The notes under the pieces are model-generated. The model did not search any database, was not told the DNA's origin, and saw only the letters and a list, made by a program, of their open reading frames with translations. Shown piece after piece: positions 57,206-64,000 of a DNA stretch of 64,000 nt; the stretch's first letter is position 1; each line of letters begins with the position of its first letter. The DNA is taken from NCBI GenBank assembly GCA_949358305.1, contig OX442314.1, forward strand, positions 48,988,581 to 49,052,580, given 5' to 3'. This stretch comes from Strigamia acuminata (taxonomy: Eukaryota; Arthropoda; Chilopoda; Geophilomorpha; Linotaeniidae). A program made the translations under genes and the position numbers.

Positions 57206-57229
57206 ATGAAGAGAACACGAGAGGATTAC
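57206..57229 (+). pseudogene. interrupted 5' end of the C2H2 zinc-finger gene
   Basis: ATG at 57206 opens MKRTREDY (8 codons), placed 35 nt after a strong splice acceptor. At 57230 a transposon begins and the frame stops after CCC AAG TAA. The frame resumes at 63303 with GAA TGC: the codon TAC (57227-57229) joins GAA in frame and completes the canonical finger start Y-E-C-N-L-C. So this is the first coding part of the zinc-finger gene at 63303-64000. Confidence 0.8.
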
Positions 57230-57835
57230 CCCAAGTAACAAAACTATGTTAAATCTATGTAGAATCTATGCAAACCGTCTATCTTGGGACATAGATTTAA
57301 CATAGAATAAGGTAGAAACTATGCCGAAACTACATAGCATTGACATGGAATAAGCGCATTTCGGTCACGATTTTGACATAGCATCTACATAGAGCTGTAG
57401 ATCGATGCTATGTCAATACAACGTCAAATCGACGTCGAATTCTACGTAGAGTTCTATGTCGATTCGACACAGAATCGATCTACCGCTCTATGTAGATGCA
57501 ATGTCAAAATCGTGACCAAAATGCGCTAATTCCATGTCAATGCTACGTTGTTTCGGCATAGTTTCATCCTTATTCTACGTTAAATCTATGTAGAATTCTA
57601 CGTCAAACTCAACGTCGAATTCTACGTCTATTTAACGTAGAATAAGGATGAAACTATGCCGAACAACATAGCATTTACATGGAATTAGCGTCGCCCGGTC
57701 GCGATTTTAACATAGCATCGACATAGAGCTGTAGATCGATTCTACTTCAAATCGACGTAGATTCGATCGAGACTTCTACATCAATTTGAAGTAGATCCGA
57801 TATTAAAATCGACTTATAGTTCTACGTACTTTTTT
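57230..57835. repeat. left subterminal palindrome of the element
   Basis: 57295-57595 is a large imperfect palindrome centred near 57440: GCGCATTTCGGTCACGATTT on the left matches AAAATCGTGACCAAAATGCGC on the right in inverse. Words such as CTATGTAGAT and CTACATAGAG recur throughout. A second half-copy follows to 57835. Confidence 0.85.
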
Positions 57836-57922
57836 TGTATAAAAAAAACAAAATATTAAAATTTTAAAAAATTTTATTTTTCGAAAAATAATAACAATAT
57901 TTGACAAAAAGAACGATTTTTT

Positions 57923-58542
57923 TCACGCGTGACTTCTTAGCAACAACGGTTTTGAGAGTTGAGGCCATTGTTGTGCATTCTCATTAAATTTCTCATCTCT
58001 TTTCGGCCCAGGTTTGCACCATTTTCCCGTTGTTTTTCCAGTTGTAATCGTGTCGGAGCCAAAATTCGCCGGTCACGTATCGATCTCGGTCTTTGAAGAC
58101 CAAAATGGAGGTTTTGTAGACTTTGATTGCGTATTCTTCGTCGTTTTTGCCGAGTGCGTGGTGAACGTTCGCTTCTTTTCCCGTGCTGACGCAGCCGTTG
58201 ATTTCTTCGAATAGCTTGTCGTGTAGTTGATAATTCTTGACAATATTCGTTTGAGTATTGGGCTTCCAAACCCGCAGTAATAAAAATACGATTGTTTTTC
58301 CGGTACCATCTACATCCAGTGTTTCCCACGTGTAACTCACATATCCGACTAGGTTCGGAAATGGATCTGTAGAACACGCGCGTTTTTCATCTACAAATTA
58401 GTGTTTTTGGTTTGGTTAATCAGTATTAAGAAAATATAAAGTCAAACTACCTTGTTTAATTGTTGAGTTGTGTGTGGTCTGTTCGCGGGTTCGCTCCTTA
58501 TCGCGAATGACCTGTCCGCTAGTTCGTATTGATTCGCTTCGT
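57923..58542 (-). pseudogene. RIOK1: RIOK1 (RIO1 kinase) fragment with an intron
   Basis: The minus strand reads FEEINGCVSTGKEANVHHA, EYAIKVYKTSILVFKDRDRY, VTGEF and KMVQTWAEK: the RIO1 ATP-binding lobe, with the STGKEANV loop and AIKVYK lysine. RIO1 is a 40S-ribosome maturation kinase. One base is lost after AEK (MRNLMRMHNNGLN continues in another frame), a second shift follows (SKPLLLRSH), and the copy ends there, before the catalytic HADLSEFN loop. Upstream, an exon at 58451-58542 has a good acceptor (TTTTTAACAG) and is separated by a 60-bp GT-AG intron (58391-58450) with matching phase. An intron argues for DNA-level capture rather than retroposition. Dead as a kinase. Confidence 0.85.
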
Positions 58543-58953
58543 CTGTTAAAAATAAATTCGTGTTAATTTTTAGTTTAGTTTTACGTCGGCATAAAAGATC
58601 GTAATAAGTGAAATTTATTTACTTTATATTCGAATTACGTTATTCGGGCAGTCGGGTCGTTTATTTCCTATCATTTTCCGATCTCCGAGGTTAATTTTGA
58701 ATACACTGCGTTTTTGTCATCGCTTCGGCGTGTATCGATCGTTGATCGATCTACCTGTAAAAATCAAAACACCTACCGGTACCTTCCATACACATGGCTT
58801 ACATGGTTGTATAGTTTAATTCCAGCAACAAGATGTTTGATTAAAACCATTAAAACCATTAACCTAACCACGCGGTCGCTTAGAGCACACAAACCGGAAG
58901 CCGGTACTTTTAAAAATTCGTGTACCGCGGACCCAACCGAACTTACGATACAT

Positions 58954-59208
58954 CTCGCGGTCCCTGAGAAAACACGAGAAAACACGAGAATCTCGTGTTT
59001 TCTTGCGTTCTCCACTTCCTATTTAAAAAAAACCGTAAAGAATCATAAAAAAAAACTGATTAAAAGTATTATTATGGTTTTTAATATTATTTTTCACTTT
59101 TAATCGGTTTTTTTAATGGTTTTTTATGGTTTTTTTTAAATGGGAAGTGGAGAAAGCGAGAAAACACGAGATTCTGGAGTGTTCTCACGTTTTCTCATGG
59201 TCCGCGAG
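58954..59208. repeat. inverted repeat, ~113-bp arms
   Basis: Arm 58954-59067 matches the reverse complement of 59096-59208 (CTCGCGG..CC.TGAGAAAAC and TCTCCACTTCC.ATTTAAAAA), with a 28-bp spacer. A foldback within the larger element. Confidence 0.85.
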
Positions 59209-59761
59209 ACGTACCGCAAATCCCGGTCCCAGTACTGTATCAGGACCGCGACCGCGGTACTTTATGTGGGAGTGCCGTGTACCGCGCACCGGGTCCGCAC
59301 AACACTGTCCCTACGTTCACAAAACTGAATAAAACATTAAAAATCAGACAAAAAATTTGCATTTTTTATTTAAATTATTTTTTCCAAAATCCAACGTCAA
59401 AACCATGTCGCCAAACACACAAAACTATAAATTTTATATCGAAAAATTGTCAACATTGGTCTTCCTTGATCCTGTCATTAGGTTATGATGGTTTAATTGA
59501 TAACCACTTGAAATGTGAATTTCCGCCATAAAAATCTCTTGTATGGGAATTTTTTATTGTTGTTAGTATTTTTATTTCATTAAATCCAAGACGAAAATAA
59601 TTCAAATTTTTTTTTTCTCTGGACGATAAGCAACAATGAAATAGTTTGACAAATCAAGTGCAATGGCTCCTGGCACGTATGCCATGTATACATATAAGCT
59701 TATGTTCAACACTTTTTGTCCGTATCGTTTAAACTCCTTTAAATTTTAGTAGTGAAGCGAC

Positions 59762-60165
59762 GAAACGTGGAACCGAAGAAAATTCAATTGACTTTCATCC
59801 CGTTCACCGACCGCGGTCTTGTGTTCGGTTCAATACCAAAGCTCGTGTACCCCGAAACAATCGTGCAATCGCCGAAATGAAGCGACGAAAAGAACGAGCA
59901 TGCCGAGACCCGGCATCCGGCGTCGTGACACTTTCGTGTTATTTAGTTCCGCAGGCGACACGTCATCTTGCATACGGTATTCAGTGGTCAGACCAAAAAG
60001 AAAATCCACAGTTCCGAAGACGAATTCGCTGAAATTTCTCATAATAACCAAACGAATGATCGGTCTTCATCCCAGTCCTGCCCCGTGTGCTCGCTTAAGA
60101 TTGAAGCAAATCACATGAACAAGCACCTCGACTTGTGTTTACTCCGAAATTTAAAATCATCGTTT
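59762..60165 (+). pseudogene. UBZ4-type zinc finger gene fragment
   Basis: Around 60075-60140 the frame reads CPVCSLKIEANHMNKHLDLC, a C-x2-C-x11-H-x3-C ubiquitin-binding UBZ4 finger of the RAD18/WRNIP1/Spartan kind. Upstream in the same frame is an acidic/polar linker (IHSSEDEFAEISHNN). Further upstream a frame reads VEPKKIQLTFIPFTDRGLVF before stops near 59878. I cannot tell which UBZ4 protein it came from. No complete catalytic domain (helicase, protease, AAA or RING) is present, so it is a fragment. Confidence 0.5.
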
Positions 60166-60513
60166 TATGTTGTTGTTGTTTTTTTATTACTTAACTCGTA
60201 TGTAATATATAAATATTTCATCGTGTTTGGTCGTTCCTCTTGATATTTCAGCCTTTTTTTTTACAAAATCATTGTTATTAAAGTGGAAAGAAATGTTAGA
60301 ATTCGTCGTTTTCGTTCGTATAGCCGCCTGGACATACATTCAATGATCCTGATCGCTTCTTACGTCTCAATAAGATCTCGCTTTTCGCACGCGCACGAGC
60401 GCATTCAAATTTCTTCTCTACAATCGCCGAACTCTTGCTTAGAGATTTGTATACATTGTTGACGATAGGACTTTATTTCTTTATTTCTTTATTTGTAGTG
60501 ATTTATTTCTTGA

Positions 60514-60957
<444 letters not shown>

Positions 60958-60963
60958 CAGCCC

Positions 60964-61140
60964 TTACACGCAGTTGGACGACGCGGGCATCTGCGGCGGC
61001 CCGCTGCTCGGCGTCACCGGTGTAAGCGGCGCGGGACCGCACTCGGCGATCATCGCCATCATTTCGTCTTCTCGCTCCATATTCGACACGTCGAAATTGA
61101 CGTAGTTGTCCGTAATCCTCAAATAAAGTAATTAAAATCC
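60964..61140 (-). other. unrecognised minus-strand open segment
   Basis: Reads RITDNYVNFDVSNMERED, then MMAMIAECGPAPLTP and a Pro/Ser-rich end before TAA. It looks like a C-terminal exon of an unknown protein. It may be another captured fragment; chance cannot be ruled out. Confidence 0.25.
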
Positions 61141-61179
61141 ATTTAACTTTTTAAAATTAATTTTATTGGTTTATTTTTC

Positions 61180-61277
61180 TTAAAAAACAAAAATCAGTTT
61201 TTCGTCATCTTCGCCCTCGTCTTCCTCGTCGTCGCTGTCTTTGTCTTGCTCATTTTGCTCGTCGACAGAAGCTAAAT
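61180..61277 (-). other. possible acidic last exon
   Basis: A good acceptor (GTTTGCGTAG) is followed by 31 codons, DEQNEQDKDSDDEEDEGEDD then EKLIFVF and stop. Acidic tails are not diagnostic; origin unknown. Confidence 0.3.
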
Positions 61278-61386
61278 CTACGCAAACAAACTATAAATTA
61301 TCTAACATTCAACGATCGAACGACCAAATAACCTTTTTCGTACGATCCCCTGTCCCTTGTTCAACCACTTCGATAAGTGACATTCG

Positions 61387-61712
61387 ACGGTCAAATAATA
61401 CTGATTCAAAACTGATAATATCTTAGACATGCGTGTATCGAGCCACCGTGCTTTTTTATTTATTTATTATCGTCGCCAACATTTCTGACGATAACGTGAT
61501 TTGGCGTACGAAACGTGCAAATTGATTCAAATTGTCCATGTTCCTGCCGATCAGCGTATACATAATATTCCCCATCGGTTTTGTTGGTGGCAAAAGGGAT
61601 TTTTGTGGTTTTTAAAGTTTACTTTTGAAACGTCGCATTCGGGATAGCGATTTGCAAAAATCACATGGACGGTCGAATAATACTGATTCAAAGCTGATTA
61701 TATCTTAGATTC
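61387..61712. repeat. 42-bp direct repeats 280 bp apart
   Basis: GACGGTCAAATAATACTGAT... at 61387-61428 recurs at 61668-61709 with three or four changes. The repeats flank a minus-strand open segment (DGEYYVYADRQEHGQFESIC, 61453-61600) that I do not recognise. Confidence 0.75.
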
Positions 61713-61751
61713 TTAGATTTGCGATCAGAACTTCGAATTGTCTAACATTTT

Positions 61752-62027
61752 CAGCGCATTCTTTGTGTCTTCGTAACGCGACGAATTTGTTCGGACGTGG
61801 GATGGATATCGAGAAAGTTAATGTTTTTAATTACGATATGCCGGAGAATTCGGATACGTATTTACACGCGTGGGGGTCGGTTTGGGACCAAGGGTTTGCC
61901 GATTTCGTTCGTCAGTGACGAAGACAATGCTAAAATTTTAAATAGTGTTCAAAGCTGTTTTGAAGTTGATATCAGCGTTTTGAAATTGACTTGTCGTCAT
62001 ACAGCGAAATGTAAAAATGTAAAACAT
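61752..62027 (+). pseudogene. UAP56/DDX39-type helicase fragment, C-terminal part
   Basis: Reads [20 protein letters not shown] and [10 protein letters not shown] in one frame, then [35 protein letters not shown] in another: motifs V and VI and the C-terminal end of UAP56. The HRVARAGR motif VI is damaged by a small deletion at the frame change. It lies 790 bp from the N-terminal piece in the same orientation; the middle of the helicase is missing and replaced by unrelated sequence. Confidence 0.88.
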
Positions 62028-62218
62028 TAAATTTTCTTTTCATTTTAAATAAAACCCATAAATTAAGTTATAGTTGTACTTTTATTTTAACTTGTTATGT
62101 GCAAATGTAATGAGTAAATGACTGCAGTTGTAAAATTTATCAAAATTATATTTGAAATCATGACGTAAAAATATACAAATTCAAACGAGCATTTCTTGAA
62201 TAAACAATTACATCAACT

Positions 62219-63300
62219 CCCAAGTCACTGTCGGTCTCTATTGATTCAACAAATGTTAAATCCATGTTAAAATTAAATTGGGATAGAATTATGACATAGA
62301 TTTAGCATAGCATCGACATTAACGGTCTACACCGATTCAACACAGAGCGGTCTATGTTAATTCAACATAAATCGGTCTATGTTGATTCAACATAGAGCGG
62401 TCTATGTTAAATCTATGTTAAATTTATTTTGGGATAGAACAGTGACGTAGATTTAGCATCACATCGACATTAACGGTCTACATAGATTCAACGCAGAGCC
62501 TTCTATGTTAATTAAACATAAATCGGTCTATGTTGATTCAACATAGAGCGGTCTATGTTAAATCTATGTTAAATTTATTTTGGGATAGAACAGTGACGTA
62601 GATTTAGCATCACATCTACATTAACGGTCTACATAGATTCAACACAGAGCCTTCTATGTTAATTCAACATAAATCGGTCTATGTTGATTCAACATAGAGC
62701 GGTCTATGTTAAATCTATGTTAAATTTATTTTGGGATAGAACAGTGACGTAGATTTAGCATCACATCTACATTAACGGTCTACATAGATTCAACACAGGG
62801 CCTTCTATGTTAATTCAACATCAATCGCTCTATGTTGATTCAACATAGAGCGGTCTATGTTAAATCTATGTTAAATTAAATTGGGATAGAACATTGACAT
62901 AGATTTAACATCGCATCTATATCAACAGGTCTATGCAGATTCAACACAGAGCGGTCTACACAGATTCAACATCAATCGCTCTATGTTGATTCAACATAGA
63001 ACAGTCTATGTTAAATCTATGTTAAATTAAATTGGGATAGAACATTGACATAGATTTAACATCGAATCTATATCAACAGGTCTATGCAGATTCAACACAG
63101 AGCGGTCTACACAGATTCAACATCAATCGCTCTATGTTAATTCAACATAGAGCATTCTATGTTAAATCTATGTTAAATTAAATTGGGATAGAACATTGAC
63201 ATAGATTTAACATCGAATCTATATCAACAGGTCTATGCAGATTCAACACAGAGCGGTCTATATAGATTCTATGTAGATTCGATCATCTGTGCTACCTGGG
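62219..63300. repeat. 151-bp tandem array, right end of the element
   Basis: The marker GGGATAGAAC recurs at 62431, 62582, 62733, 62883, 63034 and 63185, a period of 150-151 bp, about seven copies. Units are made of CTATGTTGATTCAACATAGA-type small palindromes, related to the left palindrome. The array starts with TCCCAAGTCAC and ends GTGCTACCTGGG. Confidence 0.93.
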
Positions 63301-63302
63301 AC

Positions 63303-64000
63303 GAATGCAATCTGTGTGATTATTCGTGTTTACGCTATTCACTTTTGAAATGGCACATGCTTAAACACACTGGTGAAAAGCCTTTCAAATGTCAAATGTG
63401 TTCACTTTCATTTCGACTTAAAACTTACATGACTGTCCACATGCGAATTCACACTGGAGAAAAACCGTTCAAGTGCCATTTGTGTGATTATTCTTGCAAT
63501 CAAAATGGGAACTTAAAAACACATATATTAACGCATTCAGGAGAAAAACCGTTCAAGTGCCATTTGTGTGATTATTCTTGCAATCAAAATGGGGATTTAA
63601 GAAGGCATCTATTAATCCATTCAGGAGAAAAACCATTCAAGTGCAATTTTTGTGATTATTCCTGTATTGGAAGTGGGACTTTAAGGAGACATTTAGCCAT
63701 ACATACAGGGAAAAAACCATTCAAGTGTCATTTGTGTGCTTATTCCAGCAGTGAAAGTGGAAATTTAAAGAGACATCTATTAACCCACACAGGAGAAAAA
63801 CCATTCAAGTGTCATTTGTGTGCTTATTCCAGCAGTGAAAGTGGAAATTTAAAGAGACATCTATTAACCCACACAGGAGAAAAACCATTCAAGTGTCATT
63901 CGTGTGATTATTGTAGTAATCGAAATGAGACTTTAAAAACACATCTTTTAACCCATACTGGAGAAAACCCGTTCAAGTGTCATTTGTGTGCTTATTCTTG
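63303..64000 (+). CDS. C2H2 zinc-finger protein (runs off right edge; start split off at 57206)
   Basis: The frame is open to the window end. Eight complete C2H2 fingers and the start of a ninth follow one another with TGEKP-type linkers; first Cys at 63306. Most knuckles read FKCHLCDYS or FKCHLCAYS, and the fingers end H-x3-H. Such proteins bind DNA. The finger unit at 63721-63804 is repeated exactly at 63805-63888 (84 bp), showing recent internal duplication. The first finger lacks its upstream Tyr here; it is supplied by TAC at 57227-57229, beyond a 6.07-kb insertion. As it stands, the protein lacks its start unless transcription begins nearby or the insertion is spliced out. The open frame also runs ~100 bp leftward into the repeat array, by chance. 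Confidence 0.88.

Follow-up and report, generated by a model that had tools for sequence, protein, structure and literature searches.

A probable DNA transposon carrying fragments of several host genes interrupts a zinc-finger gene in the centipede Strigamia acuminata

The interrupted zinc-finger gene and the ends of the element

The stretch of DNA analyzed here (hereafter, the window) comprises 64,000 nucleotides of the Strigamia acuminata genome (contig OX442314.1; C1:48988581-49052580) and contains, close to its right-hand border, a C2H2 zinc-finger gene, the coding region of which is interrupted by a segment of 6,071 bp. In an earlier note, prepared from the letters of the window alone, this segment was described as a gene-capturing transposon. 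Searches were performed against the genome assembly of 237,517,015 bp in 157 contigs. The results obtained indicate that the segment very probably represents a recent insertion of a non-autonomous DNA transposon of the cut-and-paste type, belonging to the Pack kind. The gene and the framework of the element are composed of the following features (window positions):

57206..57229, forward strand: first eight codons (MKRTREDY), start codon included, of the C2H2 zinc-finger gene split by the element, with one AC of the target-site duplication (TSD) at the end
57230..63300, forward strand: probable non-autonomous transposon copy, 6,071 bp, delimited by family end matches and the TSD
57230..57240, forward strand: left terminal repeat CCCAAGTAACA
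57289..57761, no strand: left subterminal inverted-repeat arms of 126 bp (91%) and 100 bp (82%)
58943..59219, no strand: fold-back repeat with 112-bp arms, related pieces of which occur elsewhere in the genome
62253..63269, forward strand: right subterminal array of 151-bp tandem repeats
63290..63300, forward strand: right terminal repeat TGCTACCTGGG, the inverse of which is CCCAGGTAGCA
63301..64000, forward strand: second AC of the TSD, followed by the zinc-finger gene in frame (ECNLCDYS...), running off the window

The inverted ends, the dinucleotide AC flanking 57230-63300 on both sides, and the continuity of the reading frame were all found where the earlier note had placed them. The two terminal 11-mers differ at two positions, and the two ends agree at 10 of the first 13 bases, thus representing, as in Pack-type elements, terminal inverted repeats (TIRs) at both ends, in this case short ones of 11 bp. 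A further inverse similarity of approximately 50 bp had also been proposed. Inward of the first 11 bp, the end-to-end alignment outscored all 500 shuffles. However, the left end is matched by 147 of 260 pieces of the right-hand repeat array no less well than by the right terminus, indicating that this similarity reflects a motif common to the subterminal regions rather than an extended terminal repeat.

To the flanks of the element, rejoined to 206 bases after removal of the element and one AC, 345 first-look candidates were found in the genome, of which 40 were scored (85-93% identity). All 40 span the junction at query position 80/81, and all four paralogues fetched read MK(R/T)TR(E/V)DY(E/N/D)CNLCDYS without a break; the expected empty-site sequence at the zinc-finger gene is GATTACGAATGC. 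The uninterrupted course of the paralogues through the junction places positions 57206 and 63303 in a single member of a large C2H2 gene family, with the insertion located after codon 8. An origin of the segment as an old intron of this family is contradicted by the paralogous genes, which lack the element sequence (40/40 scored, 4/4 read), and an assignment of the flanks to two different genes by the four paralogues joining both flanks in one gene. The 40 scored genes with their near-identical 5' ends are distributed over C1, C3, C8, and small contigs; zinc-finger genes of this type represent a recent expansion.

The insertion would most likely silence the zinc-finger gene. Alternatively, the element may be tolerated as an intron, in which case a donor at 57235 (CAA|GTAACA) would be joined to an AG before 63254 or 63266, thereby restoring the frame. 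Two in-frame donor-acceptor pairs do exist among the GTs of 57206-57330 and the AGs of 63001-63303, and the rejoined frame would be longer by 18 or 14 residues. This alternative is considered unlikely, because, as judged by eye, the donor deviates strongly from the common consensus and the acceptors have no clear pyrimidine tract, and because AGs are so numerous that some in-frame pair is to be expected anyway.

Copies in the genome, target sites, and empty sites

To a query containing the left end with 30 bases of left flank, 39 left-end matches were obtained (40 of 45 candidates scored), and to a corresponding query for the right end with 30 bases of right flank, 26 right-end matches (40 of 52 candidates scored). 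The 38 left ends outside the window begin at query positions 23-36, the boundary being 31, and the 25 right ends outside the window stop at positions 95-105, the boundary being 101, while the window's own match continues past it. As the other copies end near the same query positions, the boundaries are established independently of the window copy. Accordingly, the possibility that no further copies with these ends exist, named in the earlier note as evidence against a transposon, can be dismissed.

Matching 2-bp flanks, the TSD characteristic of Pack-type elements, were detected in 15 of the 16 copies for which both ends were read. Nine different dinucleotides were observed, namely AC, CA, GC, TT, CC, and TA (one copy each), AG and CT (two copies each), and AT (five copies). 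A match of 3 bp was found in none of the 15 copies of the first TSD set, and the chance of 14 out of 15 2-bp matches is approximately 5e-16. Furthermore, two copies reside in satellites, in the flanks of which the expected empty site was found 11 and 3 times, respectively (≤4 substitutions, exact ones included). Insertion by a transposon, as inferred in the earlier note, is therefore supported by the family ends, the TSDs, the empty sites, and the paralogues of the split gene. Segmental duplication or template-switch debris with ends similar by chance, involving no mobile element, would be in accordance with several copies being rearranged or mosaic; this explanation is extremely improbable in view of common termini shared by numerous separate loci, the site-specific 2-bp TSDs, and the precise empty sites.

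Terminal sequences and TSDs were also compared with those of known superfamilies. ISL2EU (PHIS) elements are described as having an AT TSD and ends usually starting with GG, and CMC/CACTA elements as having TSDs of 2-4 bp (both PMC4482050). ISL2EU was ruled out, with AT present at only 5 of 16 copies, nine dinucleotides in total, and ends starting with CCC; Tc1/mariner, featuring a TA TSD, was ruled out with TA/TA at 1 of 16 copies. For CMC/CACTA, the TSD length fits, but the ends, being CACTA/CACTG in that superfamily, do not correspond to CCCAAGTAACA / CCCAGGTAGCA of the element. Helitrons are not known to possess TIRs or TSDs, and this superfamily was ruled out by the TIRs and by the TSDs in 15 of 16 copies. 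Uptake of the genes by a Helitron-like rolling-circle element, in line with the gene fragments carried by Helitrons in insects (PMC6544945), is very improbable, given the inverted CCCA...TGGG ends together with the 2-bp TSDs.

A few individual copies (designated by L numbers) deserve mention. L014 (C1:11.996 Mb) is located at the exact center of the palindrome TAAGAGCCGC / GCGGCTCTTA and features a GC duplication. L013 and L020 both reside on C13, a contig corresponding in length to the Y chromosome of S. acuminata (10.34 Mb; PMC10556566). L045 is split at its fold-back repeat into two halves (C3:1277836-1281358 and C3:1408931-1411339) with 127.6 kb between them, owing either to nested insertion of a very long sequence or to rearrangement.

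Captured host sequences and their variation among copies

Between its subterminal repeats, the window copy carries the following pieces:

57925..58268, reverse strand: RIOK1-derived piece, 93-95% identical to C3:14.0015-14.0027 Mb, with approximately 820 bp of the parent missing inside
58309..58904, no strand: 596-bp multicopy sequence, 82% in seven other places and 75% in one more
59768..60176, forward strand: piece matching C6:10.210 Mb (82% identity), a locus with an open reading frame (ORF) of 159 amino acids (aa)
60531..60913, forward strand: first UAP56/DDX39-derived piece, corresponding to parent positions 113-514 of L051 (91%)
60951..61290, reverse strand: fragments of a gene located at C10:5.180 Mb (79-86%)
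61118..61197 (approximate, read by eye), reverse strand: retained intron of the C10 gene, approximately 80 bp (parental length 94 bp), with CT in place of the donor GT
61486..61710, no strand: piece matching C3:30.0764 Mb (77% identity), where translation by hand suggests a possible coding region on the minus strand
61777..62234, forward strand: second UAP56/DDX39-derived piece including 3' untranslated region, corresponding to parent positions 1044-1575 (79%)

Five donor loci were placed, namely RIOK1, an intronless UAP56 gene, the C10 gene, and ORFs without a name on C6 and C3. The cargo thus includes coding fragments with parents elsewhere in the genome, as is typical of Pack-type elements (parental genes of RIOK1 and UAP56, and an open frame at C10 once spliced over a 94-bp GT-AG intron). 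The RIOK1 and the two UAP56/DDX39 pieces named in the earlier note were verified, their parents being mapped on C3 and the RIO1 (E 3.5e-10) and DEAD (E 1.3e-8, with an overlapping weaker ResIII match) domains being confirmed by Pfam. The UAP56 parent is a single-exon open frame of 431 aa at C3:16.216 Mb. Among its named matches in other species, Strigamia maritima (80% over the entire query) and the millipede Chamberlinius (81% over 93%) rank high, and values of 80-81% over 91% were obtained for a tick, a copepod, and an acorn worm. The label of a UBZ4-type finger for 59768-60176 was not confirmed, since Pfam gave only a sub-threshold CpG_bind_C match for this piece. For the C3:30.0764 Mb piece, no match was found in Pfam, and PDB sequence searches with two cargo pieces likewise yielded no match.

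The RIOK1 piece consists of two parts standing apart in the parent, the approximately 820 bp between them being missing. As the parental frame is open across this join, no clear splice junction is present there and the join is read as a deletion. The RIOK1 intron of 60 bp that had been cited as implying capture at the DNA level was not recovered, since the RIOK1 match ends at 58268 with no intron inside and the neighboring 58309-58904, the presumed site of that intron, matches multicopy sequence elsewhere. L045, in turn, keeps most of the parental sequence between the two RIOK1 parts (83-85%), the limits of the parental exons being uncertain. Capture at the DNA level nevertheless holds, on other evidence than that put forward originally, because the C10 intron and, in L045, non-coding RIOK1 sequence were retained; a second retained host intron besides that of C10 is likely. 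A chimera derived from messenger RNA (mRNA) and moved by a retroelement would suit the UAP56 piece, which, coming from an intronless parent, cannot by itself separate DNA from RNA origin. The C10 intron, the RIOK1 non-coding sequence of L045, and ends of the DNA-transposon type make such a chimera highly improbable.

To evaluate the cargo of the family, 13 copies were scored against the donors, while copies retrieved as several separate pieces (L015/16, L018/19, L027-29, and L031/32) were excluded. Seven copies have the window-type cargo in common. The window copy, L013, L014, and L022 carry the deleted RIOK1, the C6 piece, both UAP56 pieces, and the C10 and C3:30 pieces. L017 and L020 contain more of RIOK1 and the whole UAP56 stretch, and neither the C10 nor the C3:30 piece. 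In L017, L020, and L036, UAP56 parent positions 113-1575 matched as one alignment; in the window type, the C10 and C3:30 pieces stand where UAP56 positions 514-1044 belong, which would fit repeated internal gap filling. L021, L024, and L030, featuring a longer RIOK1 and the C10 and C3:30 pieces without the C6 piece, look like mosaics. In L023, L025, and L026, a longer RIOK1 is accompanied by little UAP56 and by part of a different cargo.

The fullest version of that other cargo was found in L036, the 1.4-kb left cargo of which is entirely absent from the window copy, confirming the expectation that the same ends enclose different cargo. No match of L036 to RIOK1, the C3:30 piece, or 58309-58904 was detected at E 1e-6; parts of its cargo match C8:2.774-2.777, C1:11.02, C1:37.07, and C1:11.09 Mb. 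An SRSF1-like reading of one L036 piece was weak (best E 0.027) and is not claimed. L023, L057, and L060 share a stretch near CGAGCCAGTTTACTGGTGTAGTGATCC, marking a further interspersed repeat.

Within a 4,371-bp interior, five full copies differ from the window copy by 7-14 mismatches and 2-8 gap positions (99.6-99.8% identity), the small number of mismatches indicating that amplification of the window type was recent. The fragments diverge more from their donors (77-95% identity) than the copies do from each other, suggesting that capture preceded the burst. Capture by the window copy itself, as implied in the earlier note, is thus not supported, since its cargo, being common to seven copies, was inherited.

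Proposed origin of the element and comparison with known systems

The interpretation as a Pack-kind insertion builds on directly observed features, i.e., fixed ends, a varied 2-bp TSD, many copies, empty sites, several donor loci, and a retained host intron. The ends, together with the repetitive subterminal arrays, may be bound by a transposase supplied in trans. Repair of internal breaks or stalled forks by copying of other loci would lead to stepwise growth of the cargo, and the resulting composite elements would multiply through transposition. Finally, the window copy, with its inherited cargo, would have inserted after codon 8 in one member of the zinc-finger family.

Several candidates for the source of the transposase were analyzed. 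Pfam matches in the ORFs of the element were limited to RIO1, DEAD, ResIII, and the sub-threshold CpG_bind_C, in agreement with the absence of an own transposase in Pack-type elements: seven ORFs of at least 100 aa and some shorter ones gave no transposase, though a spliced one could escape this approach. Eight further short ORFs (one of them in the window flank, outside the element) and three ORFs from L033 and L034 were likewise without a Pfam match. In the genome, 193 occurrences of the terminal motif were counted versus 46 of the reversed control, an excess indicating that further sequences probably share these ends. Two convergent motif pairs (C3:34.50-34.52 and C4:1.75-1.77 Mb) were rejected, lacking matching 2-bp flanks. 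Copies with ends 9-20 kb apart were considered as autonomous candidates and rejected, as no transposase was recognized in the three that were read (ORFs of at least 120 aa listed for pieces L027, L028, L032, and L019). Of the four longest ORFs in these long copies, two represent retrotransposon gag (PF03732, E 1.5e-6 and 3e-8) and two have no Pfam match, indicating that nested retroelements account for part of the length. L055, L057, and L059 share the terminal CCCAAGTAACA followed by (C/T)AATGAAC(G/A)ATT(T/A)AAC and may constitute a relative that is mobilized by the same enzyme. Genome-wide, 42 YqaJ and eight Transposase_21 matches (four over cut-off) were obtained; 13 YqaJ matches with equal scores, each located in an 870-aa open frame, probably represent another young mobile family.

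The following points weigh against the proposed interpretation. No transposase or autonomous partner was found for the element family in these searches, and no YqaJ or Transposase_21 match lies within 40 kb of any listed end (the first 100 of the 193 motifs being listed). The best candidate pair (C3:36.08-36.10 Mb, 11.3 kb apart, TT/TT) was rejected, since its middle 7.7 kb contains only two ORFs of at least 100 aa, none exceeding 109 aa. L021 is the sole copy of the 16 without a 2-bp duplication (TA/AT), and for the left ends L031/L032, L033, L034, L035, and L045, which stand outside the 16-copy count, the right end was not recovered. As the fragments are 77-95% identical to their donors, the breakpoints of capture could be placed only approximately. 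Gap repair as the mode of capture is suggested by the structure of the copies and by analogy with animal Pack-TIRs (PMC8277862), no event having been caught in progress.

In plants, the capture of genes by TIR transposons is well documented. Plant Pack-TYPE elements, as outlined in PMC8903248, are likewise non-autonomous Class II elements carrying coding fragments between TIRs and occurring in families; differences are the animal host, the varied 2-bp TSD, the tandem subterminal arrays, and a superfamily that is left open in the present case. The earlier note had regarded such elements as rarely described in animals; the likeness to the Pack type stands with respect to TIRs, TSD, and captured coding fragments, but animal Pack-type elements had already been reported. 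In the survey of Tan et al. (2021; PMC8277862), 370 animal Pack-TIRs, 323 of them hAT or TcMariner and only four of them multicopy cases, were listed, with none from insect reference genomes. They resemble the present element in being TIR DNA transposons with captured host sequence, TSDs, and multicopy cases arising through transposition, but are mostly single-copy, whereas the family described here comprises many copies and several donors. The pipeline of that survey, as specified there, accepted internal sequences of 100-5,000 bp and one parent at 80-120% length, so that a 6-kb multi-donor element would escape it. For arthropod MULEs, gene capture was raised as a possibility (PMC13359780).

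Turmoil-1 of C. elegans likewise holds two unrelated gene fragments, one with an intron featuring a mutated 5' splice site; it differs in being a Harbinger with its own transposase, known from one complete copy and eight fragments, with the cargo inside 760-bp inverted terminal repeats (PMC2572040). Ssk-FB4 of Drosophila shares repetitive inverted ends, a captured gene, several copies with distinct TSDs, and a transposase that is not known, but has one donor gene, a TSD of 9-10 bp, and few copies (PMC8277862). No multi-donor animal Pack family was found in titles or abstract beginnings among the open-licence papers listed, a scope that leaves its absence from print unproven. Tentatively, the family may even constitute an undescribed DNA-transposon group with CCCARGTARCA ends, a 2-bp TSD of almost any sequence, tandem subterminal arrays, and repeated uptake of host DNA, carrying fragments of five placed, perhaps nine, host loci and transposing while growing, and would then parallel, in an animal, the Pack-MULE system of plants; we regard this as possible rather than probable.

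Compared with the four multicopy cases among the 370 of the animal survey (PMC8277862, as above), a young family with several donors, cargo types, and intermediates allows the order of capture to be read directly, and gap repair versus template switching becomes testable in an animal. It also provides a case of a young copy breaking a member of a large zinc-finger family. While animal Pack-TIRs and the capture of two genes were already known, the number of donors, the number of copies sharing a composite cargo, and the visible intermediates were not encountered in the papers considered.

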